From Sphingopyxis sp. GW247-27LB (GTDB lineage Bacteria; Pseudomonadota; Alphaproteobacteria; Sphingomonadales; Sphingomonadaceae), in NCBI RefSeq assembly GCF_002277025.1, contig NZ_NIWD01000011.1:54358-118357 (forward strand): 64,000 nt of DNA, written 5' to 3'. This document shows positions 2,983 through 37,567 of this stretch, piece by piece (the stretch's first letter is position 1; every line of letters begins with the position of its first letter). Below the pieces are notes generated by a model. It was not told the DNA's origin. It made no database searches and saw only the letters and a list, made by a program, of their open reading frames with translations. Both the position numbers and the translations under genes were made by a program.

Positions 2983-3019
2983 CTGAGAGCCTGTGCTCCC
3001 GCTTACGCAGAGGAGCCAC
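2983..3019 (+). promoter_or_regulatory. Leader element with hairpin (weaker member of a five-member set)
   Basis: CTGAGAGCC at 2983-2991 is followed by GTGCTCCCGCTTACGCAGAG and GGAGCCAC. GTGCTCC (2993-2999) can pair with GGAGCCAC (3012-3019) with one bulged base, holding the AGAGGAG ribosome binding site of the next gene. The layout matches leaders at 9165, 14329 (minus), 15501 (minus) and 16751. The conserved spacing suggests a shared post-transcriptional or transcriptional control element; the function is unknown. Confidence 0.45.
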
Positions 3020-3022
3020 GCC

Positions 3023-3310: not shown

Positions 3311-3531
3311 GCCGCGCGATCAACCTCGCGTTGCCTGAGGCCGATGTCAGGGAAATCTGCCGTGCGTCGGGAGTGGCTATCAGTGCGATCGAGCGGTTGC
3401 CGTCAGGCGGCACGCGCTTGGTCTGCACGACCAGTAGCGGCGCCGACGAAATCCGCCTCAGACTCGCTGGCCACCTGATCGAAGGCGCGGTCGATCGATT
3501 CCGCTTCTATAGGCCATCCCCGACCGGTTGA
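3307..3531 (+). CDS. Hypothetical protein coupled to the DUF2384-like gene
   Basis: This 74-residue protein begins with GTG at 3307, overlapping the preceding stop as GTGA, so translation is probably coupled. It is a compact alpha/beta sequence with RLVCTTSSGADEIRLRLAGH near the middle and RFRFYRP at the end. There is no signal peptide or membrane helix, and I do not recognise a family. A similar layout, a DUF2384-like gene overlapped by a different small gene, occurs at 17415-17934. Confidence 0.65.
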   Translation: MSRAINLALPEADVREICRASGVAISAIERLPSGGTRLVCTTSSGADEIRLRLAGHLIEGAVDRFRFYRPSPTG

Positions 3532-3646
3532 TGGCATGCAATGGCGCCGGAGGCGGCCTAGCTCGATCAGAAGAAAGCGGGCGCGACGAAACTTAGGGGG
3601 AAGCCGCGGGTTGAGACCTTATCCCCGCTGACCGAAGGATCCGATC

Positions 3647-5794: not shown

Positions 5795-5803
5795 TCGCCC
5801 ACG

Positions 5804-7039: not shown

Positions 7040-7235
7040 GCGGGTCCGCGCAACGCAGTCGCGCCATCGCACCTGTCAGTGTCTTTACCTGCTTCCGATG
7101 AGCAGCATGGTCTTGGCGCCGTCGCTGGTGTAGGGTCGATCCTTCACCGCCACCGATAGCGCGGCCGCTTTACCCATCGGCGCTCCATCATACCGAGTGC
7201 CGCCGGCATGGCGGCTCTTTCCGAAAGGATCGCTA

Positions 7236-9062: not shown

Positions 9063-9164
9063 TCCGGTGCGCAGGCCCATTCTGCGTGGCGAATTGATGC
9101 CCGCATCATGTCCGTCTGTGATAGGATGTGTCATCACCCGATTTCGATCGCAAGCTTCCCGTGA

Positions 9165-9200
9165 CTGAGAGACCTCGAGCTCCCGCTTGCCCAGCGGGAG
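9165..9200 (+). promoter_or_regulatory. Leader element: CTGAGAGACC block plus perfect 8-bp hairpin
   Basis: CTGAGAGACC (9165-9174) precedes a perfect stem CTCCCGCT (9180-9187) / AGCGGGAG (9193-9200) with a five-base loop. The 3' arm contains the GGGAG ribosome binding site of the gene at 9209, eight bases upstream of its ATG, so folding should block initiation. Near-identical elements precede 15460 (minus) and 16790. Confidence 0.6.
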
Positions 9201-9208
9201 TCTATTCG

Positions 9209-9508
9209 ATGATTTCCATCCACGAACCCTCGCGATCTTTCGGCCGGATCATTCGGTTGTGGAACCGGCTTCTCCATCACGGGCTGGAACATGTTCCGCA
9301 AACGATGGGAAACGCGTTTCACCAGTCGCGGCGCCGGCGACACGACCTCGAGCGCGCAATCGAAAGCTGGGAGCGCGAAAACGACGCCTGCTCGGGGGCG
9401 CCGCAAACAGCCCATCCTCAAGTCGTGTCGTCGTCTTCTGTCCAGCATGCCCTTGAGCAATGGGACAATGAGGGCGGAGCACAACCAGCGAAAGGAACGC
9501 GATCATGA
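9209..9508 (+). CDS. Hypothetical protein behind a structured leader
   Basis: The 99-residue protein starts at ATG 9209, placed by GGGAG at 9196-9200. The frame is open further upstream to 9128, but that would run through the leader hairpin. The sequence is basic and probably helical (RIIRLWNRLLHHGLEHV, then RRRRHDLERAIESWEREND), followed by a low-complexity tail. I recognise no family. The stop overlaps the next start (ATGA at 9505), forming a two-gene unit. Confidence 0.6.
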   Translation: MISIHEPSRSFGRIIRLWNRLLHHGLEHVPQTMGNAFHQSRRRRHDLERAIESWERENDACSGAPQTAHPQVVSSSSVQHALEQWDNEGGAQPAKGTRS

Positions 9509-9657
9509 TACTGCACAATCTCTTCGGCCGTCACCTCGTCGATTTCAAGGCGAGCCACTGGGATCGGGGGCGCTTCGTCAGCCATTGCACCGTTTGCGGT
9601 TGCGAGATGGTCAAACTACCCGGCTTGGTATGGCAGGCGAGCGGACGGCGGGGCTGA
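9505..9657 (+). CDS. Tiny zinc-ribbon-like protein (50 residues)
   Basis: ATG 9505 lies behind AAAGGA (9491-9496) and overlaps the upstream stop. The product ends SHCTVCGCEMVKLPGLVWQ plus a short basic tail, giving a CxxCxC cluster (Cys28, Cys31, Cys33) that could bind a metal. It resembles half of a zinc ribbon and could dimerise or partner with another protein. The function is unknown. It is too short for ordinary gene callers, but the overlap, the ribosome binding site and the Cys pattern support it. Confidence 0.6.
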   Translation: MILHNLFGRHLVDFKASHWDRGRFVSHCTVCGCEMVKLPGLVWQASGRRG

Positions 9658-9720
9658 GACGATCGGCTCTGCCGCTCGACCGGACGGAATCGCTCTATTA
9701 GCGACCCGGCATGATAAACA

Positions 9721-9745
9721 GGAACAATGCCCTATCCCGCGCGTC
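9721..9745 (+). promoter_or_regulatory. Possible sigma-EcfG promoter
   Basis: GGAAC (9721-9725), a 16-base spacer, then CGTC (9742-9745) lies about 40 bases before ATG 9784. The general stress sigma factor EcfG of alphaproteobacteria uses GGAAC-N16/17-CGTT; the last base differs here. The predicted leader would be about 30 bases. This is the only such match I found in the cargo region. Confidence 0.35.
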
Positions 9746-9783
9746 TTCTCCATGCCCACTACCGGGCAATTGAAGAGAGGAGA

Positions 9784-9966
9784 ATGGTCATGGTCAACCC
9801 CGACCAGAACCAGACCGGCAGCCAGCCGGGCCGCAAGTCGGAAGGCGAGCGCCAGCCCCAGCCCCAGCAGGAGGACGGCGGCCGCCGTCAGCCCGGCCAG
9901 CCGGACCGCGACAAGCGGCCTCAGCAGGGTGGAGAAGCGGAAAAGCCGGGCAAGCAGAGCAGCTAG
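9784..9966 (+). CDS. Small disordered hydrophilic protein
   Basis: The 60-residue product from ATG 9784 follows GAGAGGA at 9775-9781; ATG 9790 is an alternative. It consists almost wholly of Gln, Pro, Gly, Asp, Lys and Arg (for example GERQPQPQQEDGGRRQPGQP), with no hydrophobic core. Such hydrophilin-like proteins are often stress-induced. That role is inferred from composition and from the GGAAC-type promoter upstream. A terminator follows at 9992. Confidence 0.6.
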   Translation: MVMVNPDQNQTGSQPGRKSEGERQPQPQQEDGGRRQPGQPDRDKRPQQGGEAEKPGKQSS

Positions 9967-9991
9967 TCCGAGCTAACCGATCGTCCCCAGG

Positions 9992-10027
9992 CCGGGCTGC
10001 GTGTCGATACGTGGCCCGGTTTCGTTT
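9992..10027 (+). terminator. Rho-independent terminator after the disordered-protein gene
   Basis: CCGGGC (9992-9997) pairs with GCCCGG (10014-10019), with an inner CGT/ACG pairing, followed by TTTCGTTTT. It sits 25 bases after the stop of the gene ending at 9966. Confidence 0.6.
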
Positions 10028-10086
10028 TGGAAGTGTCCTGCCGCGCTTCAAGTCATTCCCGCTCGCCGACAGTATCCGATTTCCCT

Positions 10087-10269
10087 TCACATGCGGGAAC
10101 GGCATGCCTGTGCAACCGCGTCGGCAAGGCTGGCATAGCGATAGCCGTCCAGGAGATAGGTCGCGGCGGGCACGCGGGTAATGCCGTATCGATCGAGTGT
10201 TTCACGCTCGGCGGCGTCGATACCGCCGCATTTGCATGACCGGTCGTTGCCGGACGGGGTCTTGTCCAT
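10087..10269 (-). CDS. Hypothetical 60-residue protein, last gene of the GT4-GH130 operon
   Basis: It starts at ATG 10269, eleven bases after the GH130 stop. The N-terminus holds SCKCGGIDAAERETLDRYGI with a CxC pair; the C-terminal half (ATYLLDGYRYASLADAVAQA) looks like a small alpha/beta fold. I know no family with certainty. Spacing suggests that it is translated from the same mRNA as the GH130 enzyme. Confidence 0.55.
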   Translation of the reverse strand: MDKTPSGNDRSCKCGGIDAAERETLDRYGITRVPAATYLLDGYRYASLADAVAQACRSRM

Positions 10270-10280
10270 GTCGAAGCCTT

Positions 10281-11582
10281 TCAATCCTTGAGCTGGTCGA
10301 GAAGTGTCGTGATCCTGATCGTGGCGACGGTCGAAAAGGCGTCCGATATGGCATAGGGAAGCAGGATGCGCTCTCCGACCTTGATGGCGCCGCACGAATA
10401 GACGACGTTCGGGACATAGCCATGGCGCTCCGCGGTCGCGGGCTGGACGAGCGGTACGCGCGAGCGCCCGAGCACGCGCGAGGGATCGTCCTTGTCGAGC
10501 AGAACCGCGCCGATCGAATAATGGCGTACGGGGCCGACGCCATGGGTGAAGAGCAGCCAGCCTTCGTCGAGTTCGATGGGCGAGCCGCAATTGCCGATTT
10601 GGACGAACTCCCAAGGATATTTGGGCTTCACGATCACCTCGCCGAGGCCCCATTCGTGGAGGTCGTCCGACAGGATGAGGTGCAGGCTCTCATTGTCGTG
10701 GCGCGCGATCATCGCATAGCGCCCGCCGATCTTTCGCGGAAAAAGCGCCATCCCCTTGTTGTGCGCCGCAGCGCCCTTGAGCGGTGCCAGATGGAATGTC
10801 ACGAAGTCCCGGGTTTCGATCAGCTCCGACCTTATGCCGCTTCCGCTGTAGGCGGTGAAGGTCGCATAATAGATGGTCTGGCCTTCGTCGTGGAAGGCGA
10901 CGAAGCGGGCATCCTCGATCCCGTTCGCCTGCCTCTCGGTGACGGGGAAGATCACCCGCTCCGCGATGTCGCTGGCGGGATCGAAGCCGAGTTCCAGACG
11001 ATCGCCGACACGGGCGGTCACGACGGGCGTCGCGGCGAGCCGCGCGGGCGGGTCGATGGTAACGGTTCCGTCGGCGGCCAATATTCCCGACCGGAACGTC
11101 AGGGAAGAGATGTGGCCTTCGCCGACCGCGCGCAGGCTAAGGATGAAGCGGCGGCATCCTGCGGCGACTCCCGACTGGTCGGGGTGCGGCACGATGCTGG
11201 GATTGAACAGCGCGGCTGCTTCGAAGCTGTACTCATGAAGAAAGTAGGCGCCGACGAGCTGACGCTGCGCCTGCGAGAAGCTCTTGTGAGCTGTGAAGGC
11301 ATCCTCCATTTCCGCGGCGCGCCGTTCGAATATTGCGGGGAGGTTGCGGTGCCGGTCGTCGAAGTTTCGCAGCGTTTCGGCAAGCAGCGCGTCGGTCTCG
11401 TCCGCGGTCATTGCGAGGACGCGGTCGACGATGTGATTGGCGCGGGTCTTGTCGACGGGATGCAGGTCTCGGGGTTCGACCGCCGGCCGGAACGGCCGGA
11501 CGACGACGCGCGACGGGTCGGGCCGCAAGTGAAGCGCCTGCCGGTTGAAGAAGGGCGCGGATGGCGGAGCCCCGTCAGGCAT
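10281..11582 (-). CDS. GH130 family glycosidase/phosphorylase
   Basis: The 433-residue protein has a five-bladed beta-propeller pattern typical of GH130. Markers are ALFNPSIVPHPDQ (about 145-157), GIEDARFVAF, AAHNKGMALFPRKIGGRYAM, GNCGSPIELDEGW and GYVPNVVYSCGA. Family members phosphorolyse or hydrolyse beta-mannosides; which reaction applies here is not clear. There is no signal peptide, so it is cytosolic. The start overlaps the end of the GT4 gene by eight bases, so synthesis and turnover of one glycan may be coupled. That coupling is inference. Confidence 0.88.
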   Translation of the reverse strand: MPDGAPPSAPFFNRQALHLRPDPSRVVVRPFRPAVEPRDLHPVDKTRANHIVDRVLAMTADETDALLAETLRNFDDRHRNLPAIFERRAAEMEDAFTAHKSFSQAQRQLVGAYFLHEYSFEAAALFNPSIVPHPDQSGVAAGCRRFILSLRAVGEGHISSLTFRSGILAADGTVTIDPPARLAATPVVTARVGDRLELGFDPASDIAERVIFPVTERQANGIEDARFVAFHDEGQTIYYATFTAYSGSGIRSELIETRDFVTFHLAPLKGAAAHNKGMALFPRKIGGRYAMIARHDNESLHLILSDDLHEWGLGEVIVKPKYPWEFVQIGNCGSPIELDEGWLLFTHGVGPVRHYSIGAVLLDKDDPSRVLGRSRVPLVQPATAERHGYVPNVVYSCGAIKVGERILLPYAISDAFSTVATIRITTLLDQLKD

Positions 11583-13893
11583 TGATGGCTTCGTGTGTGG
11601 ATGGGCTCGGCTGTGACGGCGCCCGCCGGTCCGCCGCTCTCAGGCGCTGCATATCGGCCAGCGCGAGCAGGAAGGATAGCACCGATTCCGCCCCCCGGTT
11701 CTCGTTCGCGCGGTCCGGGTGGAGGCCGTCGCGGCAACTGCCCGTCGCGAGGTCAGCCAGCTTGATGCCGAGATCGTTCGCGCCAAGAAACCATGCGAAG
11801 GCGCGCTCGGCTTCCGCACGCCACGAAGAGTCTGGATCGACGCCTTTCGCCGCGATACAGGCCGCGATCGTCGCGCAAGCCTCCAGCGGCTGTTGATCGA
11901 ACGGTTCGGGACTATTGCGCGAGGTCATCAGGAAGCCATGCGAGCCGACGGGCCGGAAATGACCTTCGGGCGCCGTCTGCATCGCCACCAACCAGCGCAG
12001 ACTTCGCAATCCCGCTTCGACCATGGTCGCCGAGAGCGCTGCGGCGCCCGTGACGATCAGCGCTTGCGGCAGCCGGGCGTTGTCATAGCTGAGGCCATTT
12101 TCGAACCATGTCCATTCGGGACCTTCCTGTTCGCCCAGCAACCTTTCGAGGCGGCCGGCGAGTTCGGCACGCAGGCGCGCGGCGGCATGATCTTCGGCAT
12201 AAACCGCGCAATAGGATGCGAGGCCGAGCAAGGTGAACGCCCAGGACCGCGGTGAGGTGAAGGCCTCGACGTCGGCCAGCGCCTCGCTGAACAGCTCTTT
12301 TGCCCAGCGCGCATGGCCAAGGGAGCAGGCACGCGCACTATAGGCGCCCAGCGCCCAGAGCGTCCGCCCGTGACTGTCCTCCGAGCCCGCATCTTCCAGC
12401 CATCGCCGGTCGAAGCCCATGAAATTGCGAAAACGCCGATTGCCCGGATTCCAGCCGTGCTGGATGAAGGCCGCGAATGTGGATGACAGCCGGCGCGCCA
12501 GCGGCGCATCGGGGCCGCCGGCGAGACCGCAGCACAGGAGCAGCGCCCGTGCATTGTCGTCGATGCAATATCCATGACTGCGGTCGGCGATTGCGTGAAC
12601 GGCATGCTGGAATATCCCCGTGTCGTCGGACATCGCGGCGAGATGGTCGAGCGAGATCGGTGGGAGGTCGGGTTGGACGTTCGTCCGCAGGCGGACTGGC
12701 CCGGGTTCGGGCATCCCCGCCTGGCCGCCGGACGCGAGCCTGCGCTCACGGCAAGCCTTGCGAAAGCTCGCGGCATAGCGCCGCGCCGAATTGGCCCAGA
12801 TCATGGGGCGGCTCGCCGCATAGGCCTTGCGCCCCATCGCCAGACGTTCGGTGTCGTTGCCCAGCAGATCGGAAATCGCCGGGCCGAAGCCTGCCGGATT
12901 GTCGAACGGGATCAGGACGCCCGACCCGTCGGCGAGCAACTCGGCGGCGTGCCAATAGGGCGTGGAAACGACCGGACGCCCCAGACCATGCGAATAGGCG
13001 AGCGTTCCCGACGTCATTTGCGCCGCCGCCAGATAGGGCGTCGCATAGACATCGCACATCGCGATATGGTCGAGCAGTTCGGGGCGGTCGACGAAACGGT
13101 TGATGAACGCGACATGTTCATCGAGGCCAAGCTCGCGTACCCGCGCCGTCAGCGTGTCGCGATAACGCTCGCCCTCACGGGCCAGCAAGGCGGGGTGGGT
13201 GGCGCCCATCACCACATAGAGGACATCGGGCGTGCGCCGGACAATCTCGGGCATGGCCTCGATCATCGTCTCGATACCTTTGTTCGGGCTCATCAGCCCG
13301 AATGTCAGGATCACCTTGCGATCGGTAAACCCCAACCGCTCCTTGGCGGCTCGCGCCGAGGCGAGCGGAACATCGGGAATGCCGTGGGCGATAACGTCAA
13401 TCTTCCCCGGATCGGCGCCATAGACATTGATCAGCATGTCGCGGGCCTTGTCGGCCATGACGACCACCCGCGCCGATGCGGTAACGATATCCTTCATGAC
13501 GCGGCGCTGCGCCGTGGTCGGCCGATCGAGAACCGTGTGCAAGGTGGTGACGAGCGGCGCATCGAGCCTCGCTACGAGGCCGAGAATCAGCGCGCCTGCC
13601 TCGCCGCCGAAGATGCCGAACTCATGCTGGAGGCAGACGAGATCGAACGCCTCGCGATTGATGAAATCGGCGGCGGCGCGATAGTCGGCCACCTGGCCCT
13701 GCCGGATTGTCTTGCGGACGGCTGGCGGAAATTCGTGGTCGCCGCCCGGCTCGATCATCGCGACAATGGCCGTATCCGCAACCTCGCCGAGCGCGCCGAC
13801 CGCGAGTTCGAGGTCGGTCGTGAAGGTGGCTATGCCGCAGCGGCGCGGGAGGGCATTGCCGACGAACGCGATCCGCAGCGCCGGCGTGTGCAG
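11575..13893 (-). CDS. GT4 glycosyltransferase fused to an alpha-helical C-terminal domain
   Basis: The N-terminal half (to about residue 400) is a GT-B glycosyltransferase of family 4, with RIAFVGNALPRRCGIATF, LVCLQHEFGIFGGEAGAL, ILTFGLMSPNKGIETM and VYATPYLAAAQMTSGTLAYS. The C-terminal half (from about HGYCIDDNARALLLC) is a helical repeat domain resembling glycoside-hydrolase toroids and common in such fusions. The first in-frame ATG is at 13758, but that would remove the first strand and the RRCGIATF loop. Coding evidence reaches back to CTG 13878 or CTG 13893, with a stop at 13900-13902. No ATG, GTG or TTG is available, so the true start is uncertain. The end overlaps GH130. Confidence 0.85.
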   Translation of the reverse strand: MHTPALRIAFVGNALPRRCGIATFTTDLELAVGALGEVADTAIVAMIEPGGDHEFPPAVRKTIRQGQVADYRAAADFINREAFDLVCLQHEFGIFGGEAGALILGLVARLDAPLVTTLHTVLDRPTTAQRRVMKDIVTASARVVVMADKARDMLINVYGADPGKIDVIAHGIPDVPLASARAAKERLGFTDRKVILTFGLMSPNKGIETMIEAMPEIVRRTPDVLYVVMGATHPALLAREGERYRDTLTARVRELGLDEHVAFINRFVDRPELLDHIAMCDVYATPYLAAAQMTSGTLAYSHGLGRPVVSTPYWHAAELLADGSGVLIPFDNPAGFGPAISDLLGNDTERLAMGRKAYAASRPMIWANSARRYAASFRKACRERRLASGGQAGMPEPGPVRLRTNVQPDLPPISLDHLAAMSDDTGIFQHAVHAIADRSHGYCIDDNARALLLCCGLAGGPDAPLARRLSSTFAAFIQHGWNPGNRRFRNFMGFDRRWLEDAGSEDSHGRTLWALGAYSARACSLGHARWAKELFSEALADVEAFTSPRSWAFTLLGLASYCAVYAEDHAAARLRAELAGRLERLLGEQEGPEWTWFENGLSYDNARLPQALIVTGAAALSATMVEAGLRSLRWLVAMQTAPEGHFRPVGSHGFLMTSRNSPEPFDQQPLEACATIAACIAAKGVDPDSSWRAEAERAFAWFLGANDLGIKLADLATGSCRDGLHPDRANENRGAESVLSFLLALADMQRLRAADRRAPSQPSPSTHEAINA

Positions 13894-28621: not shown

Positions 28622-29095
28622 CTAGAGCGTCAGATGCTCGGTCGTTCGCGCCCATTCGGCGAGAGGGCCCTGCCGCTTGATCGATTTGAGGCACACCACC
28701 GACGCCAGACGGTGAACGCCCGGCAGTTTCGAAAGATCGTGCCGCAGAAGTTCGTCGAGATGGTGGACCGACCGCGCGAAAATCTTGAGCATATAGTCGC
28801 TGTCGCCCGCAGTGGTGTGGCATTCGACGACCGCGGGATGGGCGATGACCGCCGCCTCGAACTCGAGATGCGCGTCGAGATTGATCCGCACTTCGACGAA
28901 GCTCTGCACCTCGAGACCGAGCGCCGAGGGATCGAGGCACGCCGCATAGCCGTCGATGATCCCCTGCTTTTCGAGGCTGCGAACCCGCGACCAGCAGGGT
29001 GATTTGGAAAGGCCAACCCTTTCCCCGAGATCCGCGAAGGACTGGCGCCCATTCTCTTCGAGCGCGGCAATGATTTTCCAGTCGAGCCTGTCCAT
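28622..29095 (-). CDS. Lrp/AsnC family transcriptional regulator
   Basis: From ATG 29095 the 157-residue protein has an N-terminal HTH (DRLDWKIIAALEENGRQSFA, LGERVGLSKSPCWSRVRSLE) and a C-terminal RAM ligand-binding domain (VEVRINLDAHLEF, CHTTAGDSDYMLKIFA). The frame is open further upstream, but with no family likeness. In several proteobacteria an Lrp-type protein called KynR activates kynurenine genes in response to kynurenine; its place next to maiA and the kyn operon suggests that role. Candidate sites are at 29942 and 30014. Confidence 0.9.
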   Translation of the reverse strand: MDRLDWKIIAALEENGRQSFADLGERVGLSKSPCWSRVRSLEKQGIIDGYAACLDPSALGLEVQSFVEVRINLDAHLEFEAAVIAHPAVVECHTTAGDSDYMLKIFARSVHHLDELLRHDLSKLPGVHRLASVVCLKSIKRQGPLAEWARTTEHLTL

Positions 29096-29144: not shown

Positions 29145-29786
29145 TCATTGAAAGTCGGGTTGCTTCTCGGGATGCGCGGCGGCGACAGCCGGAAGCGCGC
29201 GCGCCGCCTCCGCGGCGGCATGCGCGCGGGGGAAATTCGCCAGATCGACGCCATATCGCTCGGCATTGTAGATTTGGGGAACGAGATAGCAGTCGGCGAG
29301 GGTGATCGCGTCGCCAAAGGCGAACCGTCCGCCGTGACGCGCGATCAATTGCTCCAGTGCGAACAACCCCTCGCCGATCCAGTGGGTGATCCAGTCCTTC
29401 ACCTGCGCGTTGCTCGCATCGAACTGGCTGCGCAGCCGGGTCAGGACGCGCAGATTGTTGAGCGGGTGGACGTCGCAGGCGATGAGCGCCGCCATCGCGC
29501 GCACCATCGCCGCATCCCCCGCCGCGGCGGGAAGAAGCGGGGGCTCGGGCCAGGTGGCGTCGATCCATTCGATGATGGCCGGGCTTTCGAGATAGGTTGC
29601 GCCGCCATGCTCGAGCGTCGGGACCAGCCCGTGCGGCGCGATCGCGAGATAGGCCGGCGCGCGCTGATCGCCGGCGGGCAGGTCGTGCGTGACCTGCGCG
29701 AAGTCGACCTGCTTGACGTTGAGCGCGATGCGCACCCGGTAGGAGGCGCTCGATCGCCAATAACCATGGAGAATGGTGTCGCTCAT
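29145..29786 (-). CDS. maiA: Maleylacetoacetate/maleylpyruvate isomerase (zeta-class GST)
   Basis: This 213-residue GST-fold protein has the zeta signature YWRSSASYRVRIALNVK (residues 9-25), where the Ser-Ser-Cys/Ala motif binds glutathione, then PTLEHGGATYLESPAIIEWI, and the C-terminal FAFGDAITLADCYLVPQIYN. It isomerises the cis double bond of maleylacetoacetate (tyrosine pathway, downstream of phhA) or of maleylpyruvate (gentisate pathway). ATG 29786 follows GAGGGAG. It diverges from the phhA-kyn operon and shares its promoter region. Confidence 0.9.
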   Translation of the reverse strand: MSDTILHGYWRSSASYRVRIALNVKQVDFAQVTHDLPAGDQRAPAYLAIAPHGLVPTLEHGGATYLESPAIIEWIDATWPEPPLLPAAAGDAAMVRAMAALIACDVHPLNNLRVLTRLRSQFDASNAQVKDWITHWIGEGLFALEQLIARHGGRFAFGDAITLADCYLVPQIYNAERYGVDLANFPRAHAAAEAARALPAVAAAHPEKQPDFQ

Positions 29787-30070: not shown

Positions 30071-30958
30071 GTGGCCGCGACGCACATATATGATGCCCCG
30101 CCCGAAGGGGCGGCGCCGGATTGGACGATAGACCAGCGTTGGCACGCCTTCACCGCGGAGCAGCACGCGACCTGGCGAACCTTGTTCGACCAGCAAACGG
30201 CGGCGCTTGCAGGCTATGCCTGCGATGATTTCCTGCGGGGTCTCGATCTGCTCCGGCAGATATCGCCGGGGGTTCCCGATTTCGCCGAACTCAACCGCCA
30301 TCTCCGGCCTGCAACCGGGTGGGAGGTCGTCGCCGTCCCCGGCTGGATTCCGAACCGGCCCTTCTTCGAGCATCTGACGAACCGCCGCTTTCCCGCCGCC
30401 AATTTCCTGCGGCCGCCCGAGCAGATCGGCTACAGCGAAGAACCCGACATGTTCCACGACATCTTCGGACATGTCCCGATGCTCATCAATCCGGCTTTTT
30501 CCGAGTTTCTGGTCGCTTATGGCGATGCCGGGCTGCGCGCGGAAAAGCTGGGCGCCTCCGATTTCCTCGGCCGGCTCTGGCTCTATACGACCGAGTTCGG
30601 CCTCGTCGTCGAACGCGGCGAACTGCGTGCGTTCGGCGGCGGGCTGCTGTCGAGCTATGCCGAAACCCTCGCGGCGCTCACCTCGCCCGAACCGCGCCGC
30701 ATCTGGCTCGATATCGAACGGGTGATGCGGACCAAATATCATTTCGACGAGTTCCAGCGCACCTATTTCGTGGTCGCGGGTTTCGAGGATCTGCTGCGCG
30801 CGACCGAGGAGACCGATTTTGCGAGCATTTACAGGAGGATTTCGGGCGAAGCCGCGCTCGATCCCGAGGATGCTTTCCCCGGCGACCGCGCCTATGATGG
30901 TCTCCTGCAACCGGTCCGGCCGGGACCGGCCTTCATGAACGGGGAGGCGCGGCGATGA
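30071..30958 (+). CDS. phhA: Phenylalanine 4-monooxygenase
   Basis: The 295-residue, pterin-dependent non-heme iron hydroxylase converts phenylalanine to tyrosine. The facial triad is visible as H129 and H134 in EPDMFHDIFGHVP and E175 in LYTTEFGL. PGVPDFAELNRHLRPATGWE and FFEHLTNRRFPAANFLRPPE are further family blocks. The start is GTG 30071 behind GGGGAGA. The stop overlaps kynA, so this gene leads the operon. No pterin carbinolamine dehydratase (phhB) is adjacent. Confidence 0.95.
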   Translation: MAATHIYDAPPEGAAPDWTIDQRWHAFTAEQHATWRTLFDQQTAALAGYACDDFLRGLDLLRQISPGVPDFAELNRHLRPATGWEVVAVPGWIPNRPFFEHLTNRRFPAANFLRPPEQIGYSEEPDMFHDIFGHVPMLINPAFSEFLVAYGDAGLRAEKLGASDFLGRLWLYTTEFGLVVERGELRAFGGGLLSSYAETLAALTSPEPRRIWLDIERVMRTKYHFDEFQRTYFVVAGFEDLLRATEETDFASIYRRISGEAALDPEDAFPGDRAYDGLLQPVRPGPAFMNGEARR

Positions 30959-31860
30959 TCAGGCAGACGAAGGACGGGGGCACCGACATCTTCGAGACCG
31001 AGATCGACGGCGAGACGATCCAGTGGGACAATGGCCTGACCTACGCGCGCCATATCCAGACGCAGCAGTTGCTATCGGCGCAGGTGCCGGTGTCGGACAA
31101 GCCCGACGAGATGCTGTTCATCATCATGCACCAGACGATGGAGCTGTGGATCAAGCTGGTGCTCCACGAGGCGCGGCTGGTGGTCGGGGCGATCCGCGCC
31201 GACCGGCTAGACCTCGCGGGCAAGGGGCTCGACCGGATCGCGACGATCCAGCGCCACATGATCCATAGCTGGGAAGTGCTTGCGACGCTGACCCCGCATG
31301 ATTTTCTGACCTTTCGCGGCTTCCTGCGCCGCGCGTCGGGGTTCCAGTCGCAGCAGTATCGCGAGCTAGAATATCTGCTCGGCAACAAGCGCGGCGACAT
31401 GATGGTCGTGCACAAGGAGGATGCGGCGGCGATGGCGCGGCTGCGCGCGGCCTTCGAGTCGCCGTCGCTCTACGACGAGCTTCTCCAACTGCTCGCGCGG
31501 CGCGGGTTCGACATTCCGGCCGATCATCTGAGCCGCGACTGGACCCAGCCTTACGAGCCGTCCGAGGCGGTCGAGAAGGCGTGGCTCGCCGTCTACACCG
31601 ACGTCGAGCGCCACTGGGACCTCTACACGCTCGCCGAGAAGGTTACCGCGCTCGAATATTATTTCCAGGAATGGCGCTTCAAGCACATGAAGACCGTCGC
31701 GCGCGTCATCGGCCACAAGCCGGGAACCGGGGGCTCGTCGGGGGTCAATTATCTCGTCAAGGCGCTGAACCTCAGCTTCTTCCCCGAGCTCTGGTCGATG
31801 CGCACCGAGATGGTCGCGCCGCGCGAGGGTGGGGATTATGCTCAAGGGGCGGGCGCATGA
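30955..31860 (+). CDS. kynA: Tryptophan 2,3-dioxygenase
   Basis: The 301-residue heme dioxygenase opens the indole ring of tryptophan to N-formylkynurenine. LTYARHIQTQQLLSAQ and FIIMHQTMELWIKLV hold the distal His and substrate contacts. WRFKHMKTVARVIGHKPGTG carries the heme-ligand His and the GTGGSSG loop that closes over substrate. The start overlaps phhA (ATGA) and the end overlaps kynB (ATGA). Length and motifs are complete. Confidence 0.97.
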   Translation: MIRQTKDGGTDIFETEIDGETIQWDNGLTYARHIQTQQLLSAQVPVSDKPDEMLFIIMHQTMELWIKLVLHEARLVVGAIRADRLDLAGKGLDRIATIQRHMIHSWEVLATLTPHDFLTFRGFLRRASGFQSQQYRELEYLLGNKRGDMMVVHKEDAAAMARLRAAFESPSLYDELLQLLARRGFDIPADHLSRDWTQPYEPSEAVEKAWLAVYTDVERHWDLYTLAEKVTALEYYFQEWRFKHMKTVARVIGHKPGTGGSSGVNYLVKALNLSFFPELWSMRTEMVAPREGGDYAQGAGA

Positions 31861-32486
31861 GCCGGATGTGGGACATTTCGCAGCCGCTCCACGCCGCGGT
31901 GCCCGTGTGGCCGGGCGAGCCGCCCTTCGCGCTCCACAGCCATGCGGTGATCGGCGACGGCTGCCCGGTCAATGTCGGGGCGATGTTCACGCCGCTCCAC
32001 GCGGGCACGCATGGCGACGCGCCGCTGCACTATGCCAATGACGGCGTGTCGTCGGCCGACAGCGACCTCGATCCCTATATCGGCCCCTGCGTGCTGCTCG
32101 ACGTCCGCCATGCGCGTGGCCGGGTGGAGGTGGGCGATATCGACTGGGACGCCGTCGCGGGCGCGACACGCGTCCTGCTGCGCACCTACGAGCATTTCCC
32201 CCATGACCAATGGGATTCGGATTTCACCGCGATCGCGCGCGAGGTGATCGCGCGGCTCGGCGCGATGGGGGTCCGCCTGATCGGTACCGACGCCGCCTCG
32301 CTCGATCCCGAACAGTCGAAGACGCTCGACGCGCATCACGCGGTCAAGGCCGCCGACATGCGCATCCTGGAGGGGCTCGTCCTCGATGAGGTGCCGCCGG
32401 GGCGGTACGAGCTCGTCGCGCTGCCGCTGCGCATCGTCGGCGCCGACGCGAGCCCGGTGCGGGCGATCTTGAGGGATTTGCCATGA
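31857..32486 (+). CDS. kynB: Arylformamidase (kynurenine formamidase)
   Basis: The 209-residue, metal-dependent cyclase-fold hydrolase has the zinc motif HAGTHGDAPLHY (about 52-63) and MWDISQPLHAAVPVWPGEPP at the start. GTDAASLDPEQSKTLDAHHA follows further down. It removes formate from N-formylkynurenine to give kynurenine. It overlaps kynA and kynU by four bases each, so the three genes are translationally coupled. Confidence 0.95.
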   Translation: MSRMWDISQPLHAAVPVWPGEPPFALHSHAVIGDGCPVNVGAMFTPLHAGTHGDAPLHYANDGVSSADSDLDPYIGPCVLLDVRHARGRVEVGDIDWDAVAGATRVLLRTYEHFPHDQWDSDFTAIAREVIARLGAMGVRLIGTDAASLDPEQSKTLDAHHAVKAADMRILEGLVLDEVPPGRYELVALPLRIVGADASPVRAILRDLP

Positions 32487-33724
32487 CCGGGACGCTCCTC
32501 GCCGCCGATGCCGCGGAACGCGACGCGGCCGATCCGCTCGCGGGTTTCCGCGATCGCTTCCAGCTCCGCGACGGCCTCATCTATCTCGACGGCAATTCGC
32601 TCGGCGCGCTGCCCAAGGCGACCGCCGATCGGCTGGCGCACGTGATCGCTCAGGAGTGGGGCGAAGGGTTGATCACCTCGTGGCTCGGCGCCGAATGGTC
32701 GACCGCGCCGCGCCGGATCGGCGACAAGATCGCGCGGCTGCTCGGCGCGGGGCCCGGCGAAATCATCGCGACCGATTCCACCTCGGTGAACATCTTCAAG
32801 GCGCTGACCGCCGCGCTATCGCTGCGGCCGGGGCGGGCGAAGCTGCTCTCCGAGGCGACGAACTTCCCGACCGACGTCTATATGATGCAGGGGATCGAGG
32901 CCTTTTCGGGCGGGCGGGTGAAGGCGGTGACTGCCGACCCCGATGCGGTTCTGGACGCGCTCGACGATGACGTTGCGGTGCTGCTCCTCACCCAGGTCCA
33001 CTATAAGTCGGGCCGCGTCCGCGACATGGCACAGGTCACGCGCAAGGCGCATGACGTCGGTGCTCTCGTCGTCTGGGATCTGAGCCACAGCGCCGGAGCG
33101 ATCCCCGTCGACCTGAACGGCGCCAACGCCGATTTCGCGATCGGCTGCGGCTATAAATTCCTCAACGGCGGCCCCGGTGCGCCCGCTTATCTGTTCGCCG
33201 CGGCGCGGCATCAGGCGGCGACGCCCGTGCTCTCGGGCTGGTTTGGCCACGCGCGGCCCTTTTCGTTCGAGGAAGATTATGATCCGGCGCCGGGGATCGA
33301 GCGTTTCCTCTGCGGAACGCCGCCGGTGCTCGGGCTCGCGGCGCTCGAGGCGGGCGTCGACCTGCTGCTCGAGGCCGACATGGACGAATTGCGCCGCAAG
33401 TCGCTGGCGCTCGGCGACCTGTTCATGGAGCGGATGGAGTCCCTTTGCGCCCGCTACGGCTTCACGCTGGTCAGCGAGCGCGACCCGGCGCGCCGGGGCA
33501 GCCAGGTCGCCTATGCCCATCCCCGGGGGTATGAGATCGTCCAGGCGCTCAAGGAACTGGACGTCATCGCCGACTTCCGCACCCCCGACGTGCTGCGCTT
33601 CGGGCTGACGCCGCTCTACCTGCGCTACCGCGACATCGTCGAGACGGTCGAGCGGCTCGATCGGGTCTGCGCGACCGAGGCGTGGGCGAAGCCCGAATAT
33701 CAAGAGCGGGCGGCGGTGACATGA
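32483..33724 (+). CDS. kynU: Kynureninase
   Basis: This 413-residue fold-type I PLP enzyme has IYLDGNSLGALPKAT near the start. WDLSHSAGAIPVDLNGANAD contains the aspartate that contacts PLP. K225 in GCGYKFLNGGPGAPAYLF forms the Schiff base. It cleaves kynurenine to anthranilate and alanine. Because no kynurenine 3-monooxygenase gene is present in this operon, anthranilate rather than 3-hydroxyanthranilate is the expected product. The stop overlaps the nitrilase-family gene (ATGA). Confidence 0.96.
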   Translation: MTGTLLAADAAERDAADPLAGFRDRFQLRDGLIYLDGNSLGALPKATADRLAHVIAQEWGEGLITSWLGAEWSTAPRRIGDKIARLLGAGPGEIIATDSTSVNIFKALTAALSLRPGRAKLLSEATNFPTDVYMMQGIEAFSGGRVKAVTADPDAVLDALDDDVAVLLLTQVHYKSGRVRDMAQVTRKAHDVGALVVWDLSHSAGAIPVDLNGANADFAIGCGYKFLNGGPGAPAYLFAAARHQAATPVLSGWFGHARPFSFEEDYDPAPGIERFLCGTPPVLGLAALEAGVDLLLEADMDELRRKSLALGDLFMERMESLCARYGFTLVSERDPARRGSQVAYAHPRGYEIVQALKELDVIADFRTPDVLRFGLTPLYLRYRDIVETVERLDRVCATEAWAKPEYQERAAVT

Positions 33725-34740
33725 GCGAGGTATCGATGCCCTTCCTGCCCAGGTCGAAGGTGGCGGCGGTGCAGGCCGCGCCGGTCTTTCTCGATCCCGC
33801 CGCGACGGTCGACAAGGCCTGCGCGCTGATCGCCGAAGCGGCCGGAAACGGTGCGAAGCTCGTCGCCTTTCCCGAGGTGTTCGTCGCCGCCTATCCCTAT
33901 TGGAACTGGTTGATGACGCCGATCGAGGGGGCCGAATGGCACGAACGCCTCTATCGCGCCTCGATCCTCGCCGAGGGGCCCGAGGTCGCGGCGCTGTGCG
34001 CCGCCGCGCGCGATCATGGCTGCACGGTGGTGATCGGGATCAACGAGCGCGACCCGGTCAGCGTCGGCACGATCTACAATTGCAACCTGATCATCGGCGC
34101 CGACGGCAGCCTCCTCGGGCGCCACCGCAAGCTCGTCCCGACCTGGGCCGAGAAGCTCACATGGGCGGGCGGTGACGGCGCCTCGATCCGTGTTTATGAC
34201 ACGCCCGTGGGGCCGCTCGGGACGCTGGCGTGCGGCGAGAATACCAACACGCTCGCGCGCTTCGCGCTGCTGTCGCAGGGCGAACTCGTCCATGTCGCCA
34301 ATTATATCGCGCTGCCGGTTGCGCCCGCCTCCTACAACATGGCCGAAGCGATCAAGATCCGCGCCACCGCGCACAGCTTCGAGGGCAAGGTCTTCACCAT
34401 CGTCGCCTGCTCGACGGTGAGCGAGGAGATCATCGCGGCGATGAGTGCCGACCGACCGGCGAACCGCGAATTGCTGTCGCGCCCGAACAGCGCCTTTTCG
34501 GGCGTCATCGACCCGCACGGCAACCTGATCGGCGACGCGCTGATCGACGACGAGGGCATCGTCTATGCCGAGATCGACCTTGGCGACTGCGTGCGGCCCA
34601 AGCTGATGCACGACATCGTCGGCGGCTATAACCGCTTCGACATCTTCAACCTGACGGTCGACCGGACTCCCCGCGCGTCGGCCCTGTTCGTGGACGAGGT
34701 CCCGCCCGCGGACGATCCCAGCGAGGAGGAGGCGTCATGA
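33721..34740 (+). CDS. Nitrilase-superfamily C-N hydrolase
   Basis: The 339-residue protein from ATG 33721 (overlapping kynU) has the catalytic triad E52 in AFPEVFVAAYPYWNW, K137 in GRHRKLVPTWAEKLTW and C171 in GTLACGENTNTLARFAL. The HRKLxPT block and length are those of branch-1 nitrilases, but members also include amidases. In this operon, after kynureninase and before a ring-cleaving cupin, a plausible job is releasing ammonia from an amide such as maleamate or maleamylpyruvate. That is inference; a true nitrile substrate remains possible. Confidence 0.88.
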   Translation: MSEVSMPFLPRSKVAAVQAAPVFLDPAATVDKACALIAEAAGNGAKLVAFPEVFVAAYPYWNWLMTPIEGAEWHERLYRASILAEGPEVAALCAAARDHGCTVVIGINERDPVSVGTIYNCNLIIGADGSLLGRHRKLVPTWAEKLTWAGGDGASIRVYDTPVGPLGTLACGENTNTLARFALLSQGELVHVANYIALPVAPASYNMAEAIKIRATAHSFEGKVFTIVACSTVSEEIIAAMSADRPANRELLSRPNSAFSGVIDPHGNLIGDALIDDEGIVYAEIDLGDCVRPKLMHDIVGGYNRFDIFNLTVDRTPRASALFVDEVPPADDPSEEEAS

Positions 34741-35870
34741 CCGACAGTCCCGCCGCCATCGACCCGCGCGACGCCGTTCTCGGCCGGTCGCGCGTCACCG
34801 ACACGCCCGAACTCGAGGCGTTTTACGACGACCTCGCGCGGCGCAACGCCGGCGCCTTCTGGAAGCGCGCCAACGCGATCGAGCCGTGGGAGCCCGAGAC
34901 GCGCTATCGCCCGACGCTCTGGCGCTATGCCGATATGCGCGCGATGTGCCTGCGCGCGATCGACCTCGTGAAGCCCGAGGAAGCGGGGCGCCGCGTCGTC
35001 ACCCTGCTCAACGACAGCGACGCGGGGCGCGCGAATGTCGCCGTCTGCGGCTGGCTGTTCAGCGGCATGCAGGCGATGCGCCCCGGCGAGATCACCCCCG
35101 CGCACAAGCACACGGCCTCCGCGCACCGCTTCATCATGGAGGGTAAGGGCGCCTATACCGTCGTCGACGGGCATCATATCACGCTGGGCGCCAATGATTA
35201 TGTGCTGACCCCGAACGGCTGCTGGCACGACCATGGCGTCACGGCCGATGGCGAGGTGTCGATCTGGCAGGACGGGCTCGACATCCCGCTGATGAACTGC
35301 CTCGAAACCAATTTCTACGCGGTGTACGAGCAGCCCGCGCAGACCGCCGCCTTCCCCTCGAACGACCTGCCGCTCAGCTATGGCGGCGCGGGTTTGCGGC
35401 CCGAGGGCGTCGGGGCGTGGGACAAGCCCTATTCGCCGGTGATGGTCTATCGCTGGGATGCGGTGCGCGACGCGCTCTGGAACCTCGCCAAGGTTTCAGG
35501 CGGGACGCCCTTCGACGGGCATATGATGCGCTATGCGAACCCGCTGACCGGCGGCTGGGCGCTGCAGACGATGGGCGCGCACATGCAGATGCTGCCCGGC
35601 GACTTTCGCGGGCAGGCGCACCGGCACACCGGCAATGTCGTCTATAATGTCGCGGCCGGCCGCGGCTATTCGATCATCGGCGGCGAGCGCTTCGACTGGC
35701 AGACGCACGACATCTTCTGCGTGCCGGCGTGGACGTGGCACGAGCATGTCAATCTCGACCCCTCCGAAGAAGCCTTCCTCTTCTCGTTCAACGATTTCCC
35801 CGTGATGGAGGCGCTCGGCGTCCGGATCGAGGAACCCTATTCCGACCACGGCGGCCACCAGCCCGCCTGA
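34737..35870 (+). CDS. Gentisate/salicylate 1,2-dioxygenase-like bicupin
   Basis: This 377-residue bicupin has iron ligands in the first cupin: H123 and H125 in PAHKHTASAHRF and H164 in NGCWHDHG. The 39-residue spacing from the second to the third His equals that of salicylate 1,2-dioxygenase (119, 121, 160), and R131 holds the position of its Arg127. The second cupin (GQAHRHTGNVVYNVAAGRGY) is also preserved. Enzymes of this family cleave the ring between the carboxylated and the hydroxylated or aminated carbon. The operon context argues for an anthranilate-derived substrate such as 5-hydroxyanthranilate. It overlaps both neighbours' frames tightly. Confidence 0.88.
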   Translation: MTDSPAAIDPRDAVLGRSRVTDTPELEAFYDDLARRNAGAFWKRANAIEPWEPETRYRPTLWRYADMRAMCLRAIDLVKPEEAGRRVVTLLNDSDAGRANVAVCGWLFSGMQAMRPGEITPAHKHTASAHRFIMEGKGAYTVVDGHHITLGANDYVLTPNGCWHDHGVTADGEVSIWQDGLDIPLMNCLETNFYAVYEQPAQTAAFPSNDLPLSYGGAGLRPEGVGAWDKPYSPVMVYRWDAVRDALWNLAKVSGGTPFDGHMMRYANPLTGGWALQTMGAHMQMLPGDFRGQAHRHTGNVVYNVAAGRGYSIIGGERFDWQTHDIFCVPAWTWHEHVNLDPSEEAFLFSFNDFPVMEALGVRIEEPYSDHGGHQPA

Positions 35871-35894
35871 CTGCAAACAGACAGGATTAAATCC

Positions 35895-36803
35895 ATGCGT
35901 TTCGTGACTTATCGCACGGTCGAGACCGAATCGCGGCTCGGCCTTCTCCACGACGGGCTCGTGGTCGACGTCGAATATTTCGGCGCCGCGATCGGGCAGA
36001 ATCTGCCCTCGACGATGCTCGATTTCATCGACCTCGGGCCGATCGCGCTGCGTTTCCTGCAAGAGGCGGTGACCAACGCCTCGACCGCCGATTTCGTCGG
36101 CACGTCGCTTCCGCAAGCCAATGTCGCGCTGCTCGCGCCGATCCCGCGGCCGCGCAAGAATATCTTCGGAATCGGCCTCAACTATACCGAGCATGTCGCG
36201 GAATCGGCACGCAGCCTCGACACGTCGAAGGACCTGCCGCAGCAGCCGGTGATCTTCTCCAAGCCGCCGACCGCGGTCGCCGCGTGGGACGACCCGATCC
36301 GCCACAATGGGGCGGTGACGCAGCAGCTCGACTGGGAAACCGAGCTCGCCGTCGTCATCGGCCGCACCGCGCGCCGCGTCGCCGAGGCCGACGCGCTGGG
36401 TCATGTCTTCGGCTATACGGTGATCAACGACGTCTCGGCGCGCGACTGCCGCCGCGCCGGCCAGTGGATCGTGTCGAAGGGACAGGACAGTTTCGCGCCG
36501 ATGGGACCGTGCATCGTCACGTCCGATGAAATTGGTGACCCGCAGGACCTGACCCTCAAGACGCGCGTCAACGGGGTGGAGAAGCAGAACGGCAACACGC
36601 GCTTCATGCTGTTCAACGTGGCGCAGCTCGTCGCCGACATATCGAGCGTGATGACGCTCGAGCCCGGCGACATCATCGCGACCGGCACGCCGGCGGGCGT
36701 CGGTGCCGGGCGCGATCCGCAGGAGTTCCTGTGGCCGGGCGACGTCGTCGAATGCGAGATCGAGAAGGTCGGCATGCTGCGCAACCCGGTCGTCGCGGTC
36801 TGA
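35895..36803 (+). CDS. Fumarylacetoacetate hydrolase family protein
   Basis: The 302-residue protein has a variable N-terminal domain and the FAH catalytic domain from about residue 85: IFGIGLNYTEHVAESAR, DWETELAVVIGRTARRV (metal-binding Glu residues), NDVSARDCRR and GDIIATGTPAGVGAG. Such enzymes hydrolyse C-C bonds of beta-diketo acids, for example fumarylpyruvate. Behind the cupin dioxygenase it should cut the ring-fission product to pyruvate and a C4 acid or its amide. It starts 24 bases after the cupin stop, with an AGGATT-like site. Confidence 0.9.
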   Translation: MRFVTYRTVETESRLGLLHDGLVVDVEYFGAAIGQNLPSTMLDFIDLGPIALRFLQEAVTNASTADFVGTSLPQANVALLAPIPRPRKNIFGIGLNYTEHVAESARSLDTSKDLPQQPVIFSKPPTAVAAWDDPIRHNGAVTQQLDWETELAVVIGRTARRVAEADALGHVFGYTVINDVSARDCRRAGQWIVSKGQDSFAPMGPCIVTSDEIGDPQDLTLKTRVNGVEKQNGNTRFMLFNVAQLVADISSVMTLEPGDIIATGTPAGVGAGRDPQEFLWPGDVVECEIEKVGMLRNPVVAV

Positions 36804-36811
36804 GGCGCGCC

Positions 36812-37567
36812 ATGACGGCACGACCTATCCGCATCGGGCAGATCGTGCCCAGCTCCAACGTCACGATGGAGACCGAGATTCCGGCGCTGCTCCGCGCCCG
36901 CGAGGCCATCGCGCCCGAGCGCTTCACTTTCCACTCGTCGCGGATGCGGATGAGGAAGGTGACGAAGGAGGAGCTCGCGGCGATGGACGCCGATTCCGAC
37001 CGCTGCGCGCTCGAACTGTCCGACGCCGCGGTCGACGTCCTCGGCTACGCCTGCCTCGTCGCGATCATGAGCATGGGGCAGGGTTATCACCGCGTCTCCG
37101 AGGCGCGGCTCCACCAATGCACGGTGGAGAACGGCCACCCTGCGCCCGTCGTGACGAGCGCGGGGGCGCTGATCGAGGGGCTGAAGGCGCTCGACGCGAA
37201 GCGCATCGCGCTCGTCGCGCCCTATATGAAGCCGCTCACGCAGATGGTCGTCTCCTATATCGAGGAGGAGGGCGTGGCGGTCGCCGACTGGCTCGCGCTC
37301 GAAATCCCCGACAATCTGGAAGTCGCGGCGCAGGATCCGGTCCATCTGCTCGATCATTACAAGCGCCTCGACCTCACCGGCATCGACGCGCTCGTCCTGT
37401 CGGCTTGCGTCCAGATGCCCTCGCTGCCGTCGGTGCAAAGGATCGAGGATGCGATCGGCCTGCCGGTCGTATCGGCCGCGATCTGCACCGCGCACCAGAT
37501 GCTGACGCGCCTGGGGCTGCCGACGAAGGTTCCCGGCGCGGGGGCCTTGCTGTCGGGCCGCTATTGA
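36812..37567 (+). CDS. Maleate cis-trans isomerase (Asp/Glu racemase superfamily)
   Basis: The 251-residue product from ATG 36812 closely follows the NicE/maleate isomerase pattern: IRIGQIVPSSNVTMETEIPA, ERFTFHSSRMRMRKVTKEEL, the first catalytic cysteine C81 in LGYACLVAIMSMGQG and the second C199 in VLSACVQMPSLPSV. It interconverts maleate and fumarate. As last gene of the operon it implies that maleate is an end product of the preceding steps, as in nicotinate degradation. The gap to the FAH gene is eight bases. Confidence 0.92.
   Translation: MTARPIRIGQIVPSSNVTMETEIPALLRAREAIAPERFTFHSSRMRMRKVTKEELAAMDADSDRCALELSDAAVDVLGYACLVAIMSMGQGYHRVSEARLHQCTVENGHPAPVVTSAGALIEGLKALDAKRIALVAPYMKPLTQMVVSYIEEEGVAVADWLALEIPDNLEVAAQDPVHLLDHYKRLDLTGIDALVLSACVQMPSLPSVQRIEDAIGLPVVSAAICTAHQMLTRLGLPTKVPGAGALLSGRY

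Follow-up and report, generated by a model that had tools for sequence, protein, structure and literature searches.

The window analyzed here is a stretch of 64,000 nucleotides from the genome of Sphingopyxis sp. GW247-27LB (assembly GCF_002277025.1, contig NZ_NIWD01000011.1, positions 54,358 to 118,357 of the forward strand). The whole genome, herein referred to as G000, comprises 4.79 Mb. An operon of eight genes, all on the + strand, was found at positions 30071-37567 of the window. It contains the following genes:

30071..30958, + strand: pterin-dependent aromatic amino acid hydroxylase (AAAH) of the operon-type clade, proposed tryptophan (or kynurenine) 5-hydroxylase (PF00351, TIGR01267, fixed residue differences)
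30955..31860, + strand: tryptophan 2,3-dioxygenase (TDO) of a divergent clade (recognized by Pfam PF03301; 353.3 bits with the NCBI equivalog model TIGR03036, below its cut-off of 390.7)
31857..32486, + strand: arylformamidase KynB of the cyclase family (TIGR03035, 240.9 bits, cut-off 223.05)
32483..33724, + strand: kynureninase KynU (TIGR01814, 290.3 bits, cut-off 246.4)
33721..34740, + strand: C-N hydrolase of the nitrilase superfamily, proposed maleamate amidohydrolase (PF00795; E52, K137, C171)
34737..35870, + strand: bicupin ring-cleaving dioxygenase, proposed 5-hydroxyanthranilate 1,2-dioxygenase (3bu7, 520 bits; below the cut-offs of TIGR02272 and NF049978)
35895..36803, + strand: FAH-family C-C hydrolase, proposed maleamylpyruvate hydrolase (PF01557)
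36812..37567, + strand: maleate cis-trans isomerase (4fq7, 344 bits, with both aligned cysteines)

Overlaps of 4 bp were found at five successive junctions (AAAH/TDO, TDO/KynB, KynB/KynU, KynU/C-N hydrolase, and C-N hydrolase/cupin), the start of the C-N hydrolase being chosen as the ATG that overlaps the kynU stop. The cupin and FAH genes are separated by 24 bp, and the FAH and isomerase genes by 8 bp.

The last seven genes had been described in the initial annotation of this interval, and all of them were recovered at the same positions, in one overlapping operon and with families confirmed by family scans. The first gene had been left unnamed and unused, and a 5-hydroxylase had been held to be missing. 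This gene encodes an AAAH of a distinct clade with altered pocket residues and probably supplies that 5-hydroxylase, so the step is probably not missing. Hydroxylation would then probably take place on tryptophan (or kynurenine) rather than on anthranilate. A search of the genome for an anthranilate 5-hydroxylase, also proposed in that annotation, returned no full-length match of the CoA type; for the monooxygenase/oxidoreductase fusion NF006101, matches in G000 were found to the oxidoreductase half only.

We consider it reasonably probable that the operon encodes a complete aerobic pathway for tryptophan catabolism, which begins with hydroxylation of tryptophan at C5. In this pathway, AAAH and reduced pterin would convert tryptophan to 5-hydroxytryptophan, TDO would open the pyrrole ring to form N-formyl-5-hydroxykynurenine, and KynB would produce 5-hydroxykynurenine. 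KynU would split the latter into alanine and 5-hydroxyanthranilate. Ring cleavage by the bicupin between C1 and C2 would then turn the amino-bearing carbon into an amide and give maleamylpyruvate. The FAH-family enzyme would yield pyruvate and maleamate, the C-N hydrolase ammonia and maleate, and the isomerase would convert maleate to fumarate. We infer all these substrates and reactions, as well as tryptophan over kynurenine as the AAAH substrate, from sequence.

The AAAH contains a Biopterin_H domain (PF00351) and a 2-His-1-Glu iron site, formed by the HxxxxH motif starting at residue 129 and by E175, with roles assigned by alignment (PMC11885754). The same genome also encodes a protein of the pterin carbinolamine dehydratase family. 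The residue located four positions before the iron-ligand Glu is the Phe/Trp selectivity site, corresponding to W179 in XcPAH and W192 in CtAAAH (PMC11885754, PMC5856393). Trp at this site would be expected of a bacterial phenylalanine hydroxylase (PAH), and the operon AAAH has Leu171 instead. Two AAAHs were found in G000, the operon copy and a separate copy on contig C15 with the ordinary Trp, and they are 55% identical. The 42 distinct operon-type sequences without exception have Leu at the selectivity site, and the 44 distinct others all have Trp, including 29 of 29 AAAH copies from the sample of the class. Two further positions differ in the same manner. The equivalent of XcPAH I233 is Phe in 42/42 operon-type sequences and Ile in 11/11 others and in the 29/29 further copies from the class; the equivalent of XcPAH L98 is Trp, Val, or Phe in the 42 operon-type copies and Leu in 10 others and CvPAH. 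The three codons of the window gene are:

30344..30346, + strand: AAAH W92 (CvPAH L101; XcPAH L98 by alignment)
30581..30583, + strand: AAAH L171 (CvPAH W180; XcPAH W179, the Phe/Trp selectivity site)
30743..30745, + strand: AAAH F225 (CvPAH I234; XcPAH I233 by alignment)

In total, 16 columns are fixed differently between the operon-type AAAHs and the 10 others plus CvPAH. Three of these columns (XcPAH L98, W179, and I233) fall among the six substrate-surrounding sites mutated in PMC11885754 (hypergeometric p 0.0036, a value that is flattered because the authors picked the sites partly for low conservation). The alignment was built from 75 sequences merged to 52 distinct ones, with CvPAH added; a broken copy (L096) and two copies of the window gene (L002 and L057) were left out. 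XcPAH numbering was transferred through this alignment, anchored on the iron ligands. The class controls were taken from the best-scoring loci only and comprise 29 AAAH copies (60 of 289 genomes with a match) and 29 TDOs (50 of 289). Among the 38 module-bearing genomes of the genus described below, five (G289, G297, G326, G327, and G338) were not included as such in the reading of AAAH residues.

The distribution of the operon was analyzed in 80 genomes of the genus, with thresholds of E<=1e-60 for both the C-N hydrolase and the cupin. The C-N hydrolase was found in 38 genomes and the cupin in the very same 38. This genus-wide match is the evidence for the pairing of the two enzymes. An operon-type AAAH was found in all 38 of these genomes, at 77-100% identity in 35 and at 59% in three. 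Among the 42 genomes without the C-N hydrolase, an intact operon-type AAAH (60%) was found only in G299. The AAAH copies in the remaining genomes have at most 56% identity, except for G336, in which a broken AAAH lies in two pieces (59% and 45%), both fragments of the ordinary-Trp type; no AAAH was found in G356. Co-occurrence of the AAAH and the module gives a Fisher p of 4e-22 with genomes treated as independent, a value made too strong by the relatedness of the genomes. In G307, G319, and G355, the AAAH gene and the remaining operon genes lie on opposite strands and are separated by an Lrp gene, so the association of AAAH with the operon outlasts rearrangement. For two C-N hydrolases, those of G027 (52%) and G283 (48%), no other operon gene was found in about 20 kb around. 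Four further cupin loci of the genus were analyzed (cupin identity 55-58%), with a C-N hydrolase of 61% identity in one, a distant one (35-36%) in two, and none in the fourth. At L252:1950-10413 (G337), an isatin hydrolase-like gene, an aminobenzoyl/salicylyl-CoA-type flavoprotein, a thioesterase, FAH, a cupin of the second kind described below, and a distant C-N hydrolase (35%) are located together.

The TDOs of these operons form a distinct clade (support 0.90). At the position equivalent to XcTDO Y27, assigned from the shared Y-x-x-Y-L spacing, His was found in all 46 distinct operon TDOs; of the 25 others, 23 have Tyr, one has Phe, and one has Gly. The codon in the window gene is:

31051..31053, + strand: TDO H33 (XcTDO Y27, in the pocket-forming segment of the neighbouring subunit)

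For this alignment, 69 operon TDOs were merged to 46 distinct ones and two solved TDOs were added to the others; six of the 29 class TDO frames contain a stop and were dropped, all six having Tyr at this site. The His is a suggestive hint at an altered TDO substrate and only that, because 15 columns in all are fixed between the groups, of which one, the Y27 site, is known to be in the pocket.

The residues reported earlier for the lower enzymes of the window were found again. The C-N hydrolase has E52, K137, and C171, all invariant in an alignment of five sequences, and the isomerase retains C81 and C199, aligned with the cysteines of the solved 4fq7. The best named matches of the C-N hydrolase are from Sphingopyxis, and no relative was found in the viral contigs searched. 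Its closest solved relatives are nitrilases (209 bits), and its best NCBIfam model is that of the Nit6803 nitrilase (TIGR04048), with a score of 223.8 far under the cut-off of 502.6. These similarities, together with isatin hydrolase-like or IorAB-like genes in some of the other loci described below, would fit a true nitrilase, acting for example on indole-3-acetonitrile, in a module that handles nitrile- or indole-derived compounds by other ring chemistry. We regard such a role as very improbable. The gene shares 4 bp with kynU at one end and 4 bp with the cupin gene at the other and, in TDO-type loci, sits with the cupin, FAH, and maleate isomerase genes; moreover, no nitrile is formed between tryptophan and anthranilate.

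The cupin contains two Cupin_2 stretches, as expected for the bicupin family, and H123, H125, H164, H295, H335, and H337 are invariant across six sequences; the iron-binding histidines are presumably among them. Among solved proteins, it is closest to 3bu7 (520 bits), which is named gentisate 1,2-dioxygenase. Scores of about 158 bits were obtained with 2phd, 4fag, and others, which bear the same name in the output and which we take to be the salicylate 1,2-dioxygenase group. The cupin remains under the cut-offs of both the gentisate 1,2-dioxygenase model TIGR02272 (290.4 vs. 442.1 bits) and the 5-aminosalicylate 1,2-dioxygenase model NF049978 (248 vs. 650 bits).

The surroundings of the lower module were analyzed in 80 loci, the best 80 of at least 567 confirmed stretches from a scan with the five-sequence C-N hydrolase alignment. 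Neighbouring genes were scored by tblastn. These loci belong to Sphingomonadales, Flavobacterium, Sphingobacterium, Burkholderia, Cupriavidus, Bradyrhizobium, and others. A cupin relative was found in 79 loci and an FAH relative in 78. TDO was found in 31 loci and a flavoprotein of the 2-aminobenzoyl/salicylyl-CoA 5-hydroxylase type in 27, this type being defined by more than 300 bits to the fused FAD-monooxygenase/Oxidored_FMN protein of L133; neither was found in 22 loci and both in none. AAAH is present within the fetched stretch in 27 of the 31 TDO-type loci, and in a 28th case (L121) an operon-type AAAH is located elsewhere in the genome.

The flavoprotein context spans Bacteroidota, Betaproteobacteria, and a few Sphingomonadales (3/27: L151, L153, and L175). 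Cupin, FAH, and maleate isomerase are present in all 27 of these loci, accompanied by an L133-like thioesterase in 21, an L133-like ligase in 16, and, in 7, a gene that we take to be isatin hydrolase-like, for which NCBIfam gave a weak arylformamidase match. Family scans in this context were made on the proteins of L133 (Flavobacterium beibuense) only; the ligase of this locus is closest to benzoate-CoA ligases, below the cut-off. Release of the thioester after the flavoprotein step would yield 5-hydroxyanthranilate, at which the two upstream halves would converge; the TDO-type and the flavoprotein-type contexts both suggest this compound. If the product of the flavoprotein were gentisyl-CoA, we can see no task for the C-N hydrolase. 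The lower route put forward in the initial annotation, from 5-hydroxyanthranilate through maleamylpyruvate, maleamate, and maleate to fumarate, gains support from this second context.

By identity to the window cupin, two subtypes can be distinguished: 67-98% in 28 of the 31 TDO-type loci and 51-60% elsewhere, except for L131 (67%). The second kind (55-57%) was found in the TDO-type loci L121, L125, and L127, which suggests that both cupin kinds do the same job.

In nine Bradyrhizobium-type loci (L147, L148, L162, L166-L168, L174, L177, and L180), the C-N hydrolase, cupin, and FAH genes are accompanied by IorAB-like subunits, a thioesterase, and an acyl-CoA ligase-like gene, and in L147 also by a Rieske-type oxygenase, identified by eye. 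One of them, L168, is from a record titled Frankia sp. RB7 and has similar scores; this assembly is possibly mislabelled. In Sphingobacterium (L172:3010-8951), a gene presumably isatin hydrolase-like and a styrene monooxygenase StyA-like gene adjoin the module, and the locus may be an island for indole degradation.

Two genes on the opposite strand are located upstream of the operon:

29145..29786, - strand: zeta-class glutathione S-transferase (GST), MaiA-like (maleylacetoacetate isomerase-like), divergent neighbour (TIGR01262, 251.8 bits)
28622..29095, - strand: Lrp/AsnC-family regulator, possible regulator of the operon (PF01037)

A relative of the Lrp regulator with at least 60% identity was found in 26 of the 31 TDO-type loci. 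Relatives of the MaiA-like GST (46-47%) are located after the isomerase gene in L087 and L088. Isomerization might alternatively take place on maleamylpyruvate, through this GST instead of the maleate isomerase.

Several findings weigh against the proposed pathway. The first concerns the name of the AAAH, which lies above the cut-offs of the NCBI models for phenylalanine 4-monooxygenase (287.1 vs. 264.75 for TIGR01267; 247.9 vs. 247 for the second model). The protein could thus be an ordinary phenylalanine hydroxylase that stands in the operon by chance, with the lower genes degrading gentisate or a substituted salicylate or cleaving anthranilate directly. The similarity of the cupin to an enzyme named gentisate 1,2-dioxygenase and the adjoining MaiA-like gene would agree with this, as would the flavoprotein of L133, for which the best named model is salicylyl-CoA 5-hydroxylase (985 bits, below the cut-off of 1078), an identity that would make gentisate the product. 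In addition, the sole AAAH found in the Novosphingobium assembly G369 (L129 and L214) is of the operon (Leu) type; either phenylalanine hydroxylation is absent there, or the assembly is incomplete, or one AAAH serves both roles. On the other side, G000 has, besides the AAAH with the ordinary Trp, a second, gentisate-type locus (L255, G000:C16:36000-52000) with a cupin, an FAH-type protein, a MaiA-like GST, and, by eye, Rieske-type subunits, so the AAAH and ring-cleavage genes of the operon are extra paralogues. A gentisate route requires no C-N hydrolase, yet this enzyme and the cupin share the same 38 of 80 genomes, and the selectivity Trp is replaced in every operon-type sequence. A gentisate operon is weakened by both the separate locus and the genus-wide match, and we consider the reading as a whole improbable.

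The second group of findings concerns the substrate of the AAAH within the proposed pathway. Animal tryptophan hydroxylase (TPH) and XcPAH W179F have Phe at the selectivity site, and the operon AAAH has Leu. According to Table 3 of PMC11885754, 5-hydroxytryptophan was formed by XcPAH W179F and W179Y and was not formed by W179L, W179I, or W179M; an aromatic ring at this site is required in the view of the authors. This is the strongest evidence against the pathway and speaks directly against a W-to-L change on its own. The lone W179L mutant is no fair copy of the operon-type AAAH, because Leu is accompanied there by Phe at I233 and by Trp, Val, or Phe at L98, but the objection keeps its weight. 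In a midpoint-rooted tree, the operon-type AAAHs fall into a single clade (support 0.77), so their residue changes represent one evolutionary history without independent repeats. To our knowledge, known TDOs are poor on 5-hydroxytryptophan.

The mutant result and the substrate range of TDO would be accommodated if the AAAH acted on kynurenine (or formylkynurenine) in the same route. TDO and KynB would then act first on plain tryptophan, and 5-hydroxykynurenine, hydroxylated para to the amino group, would be formed before KynU. TDO would not need to accept 5-hydroxytryptophan, Leu in place of Phe would agree with the W179L result (PMC11885754), and the gene set and co-inheritance fit equally well. 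The His that replaces Tyr in the pocket of the operon TDOs (46/46 vs. 0/25) hints at a changed TDO substrate and speaks against this order of steps, with limited weight. We also know of no AAAH that accepts kynurenine. Taken together, hydroxylation of kynurenine appears rather unlikely, though it is the closest competitor of tryptophan 5-hydroxylation.

Further points against the pathway come from the distribution and the ring cleavage. In G299 (L090:7391-11710), the genes for AAAH, Lrp, TDO, KynB, and KynU are present, and no C-N hydrolase and no cupin were found in the genome with the thresholds given above; this is the upper half alone. The 80 loci of the scan were fetched by the C-N hydrolase, so its presence in them is no evidence. 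The related monocupin 5-nitrosalicylate dioxygenase is reported as inactive on 5-hydroxyanthranilate (PMC10306065). The domain of 3-hydroxyanthranilate dioxygenase (3-HAO; PF06052) was found in 18 of the 80 genomes of the genus, 9/38 with and 9/42 without the module; in those nine, the 3-hydroxyanthranilate route coexists with the module, and the routes are not mutually exclusive. In G000 itself, 3-HAO is absent. The earlier statement that kynurenine 3-monooxygenase and 3-HAO are lacking thus extends to the whole genome for the latter, and for the former, not searched for in the genome, it holds for the operon. No kynurenine monooxygenase was seen by eye in the surroundings of two PF06052 matches.

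Gammaproteobacterial operons with genes for TDO, KynU, C-N hydrolase, cupin, and FAH were found at three loci:

L132, positions 4432-13212
L142, positions 4664-13139
L176, positions 928-6289

No AAAH was found at E<=1e-15 in the corresponding assemblies, the completeness of which is unstated, and the prediction of an AAAH elsewhere in these genomes failed in all three; this too counts against the pathway. These bacteria may take up a 5-hydroxylated substrate or use another hydroxylase, or the assemblies may be incomplete. Sulfatase-like and esterase-like genes are located beside TDO in L132 (scanned) and L142 (by eye), with an NSS-type transporter downstream (by eye).

The wider reading, to which we give an even chance, is that a dedicated natural bacterial tryptophan 5-hydroxylase opens a "5-hydroxy kynurenine pathway", in which TDO is adapted to 5-hydroxytryptophan by His in place of a pocket Tyr and a first 5-hydroxyanthranilate 1,2-dioxygenase takes part. 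The four-gene lower module would be a cross-phylum hub for anthranilate derived from tryptophan, indole, or isatin, and the genetic basis of a "gentisate-type" anthranilate route in which maleamate gives up the nitrogen. In the literature search, which covered mainly open-licence papers and is thus no proof of absence, no report of bacterial tryptophan catabolism through 5-hydroxytryptophan was found, and the word maleamylpyruvate was absent. If the proposal is true, bacterial tryptophan catabolism would have a new branch, and a catabolic enzyme that naturally hydroxylates tryptophan (or kynurenine) at position 5 could perhaps serve in 5-hydroxytryptophan production. The annotation would be corrected for a clade now named phenylalanine 4-monooxygenase by the NCBI model. 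Candidate genes would also become available for the anthranilate route through 5-hydroxyanthranilate; the gene and enzyme of the gentisate pathway for anthranilate were called unrevealed in a 2018 review (PMC6221969). Each proposed step can be tested directly with purified enzymes.

The proposed pathway resembles several known systems. With the anthranilate branch of the bacterial kynurenine pathway (kynABU), it shares TDO, arylformamidase, and kynureninase; here, however, AAAH precedes these enzymes, a ring-cleavage module with a C-N hydrolase follows them, and 3-HAO is absent from the genome. In Nocardia opaca, anthranilate is degraded through 5-hydroxyanthranilate to gentisate and maleylpyruvate (Cain 1968, as told in PMC4539516). 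The intermediate 5-hydroxyanthranilate is common to both routes, but no deaminase was found in the operon by family scan; the presence of a C-N hydrolase suggests release of the nitrogen from maleamate, in the form of ammonia.

In the 2-aminobenzoyl-CoA pathway of Azoarcus evansii and Arthrobacter Rue61a, activated anthranilate is 5-hydroxylated, and related flavoproteins adjoin the lower module in 27/80 loci. In that pathway, the ring is then reduced, followed by beta-oxidation (PMC4539516), and Arthrobacter Rue61a is reported not to grow on 5-hydroxyanthranilate (PMC3534580), whereas the neighbours in the flavoprotein loci point to release of the thioester and oxidative cleavage of the ring. 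The lower pathway of nicotinate and nicotine is similar in the proposed hydrolysis of maleamate followed by maleate isomerase, and the isomerase is related to 4fq7. In the nicotinate pathway, maleamate derives from 2,5-dihydroxypyridine; in contrast, the amidase proposed here belongs to the nitrilase superfamily, and maleamate would come from the C-C hydrolase. Animal tryptophan 5-hydroxylase, the serotonin-making enzyme, and the engineered bacterial PAHs W179F/W192F belong to the same family as the operon AAAH and are altered at the same selectivity site. The operon AAAH scores higher against bacterial PAH (271 bits) than against solved animal TPH (109 bits). The operon AAAH differs from them in having Leu for Phe, and in being a natural enzyme encoded in a catabolic operon.

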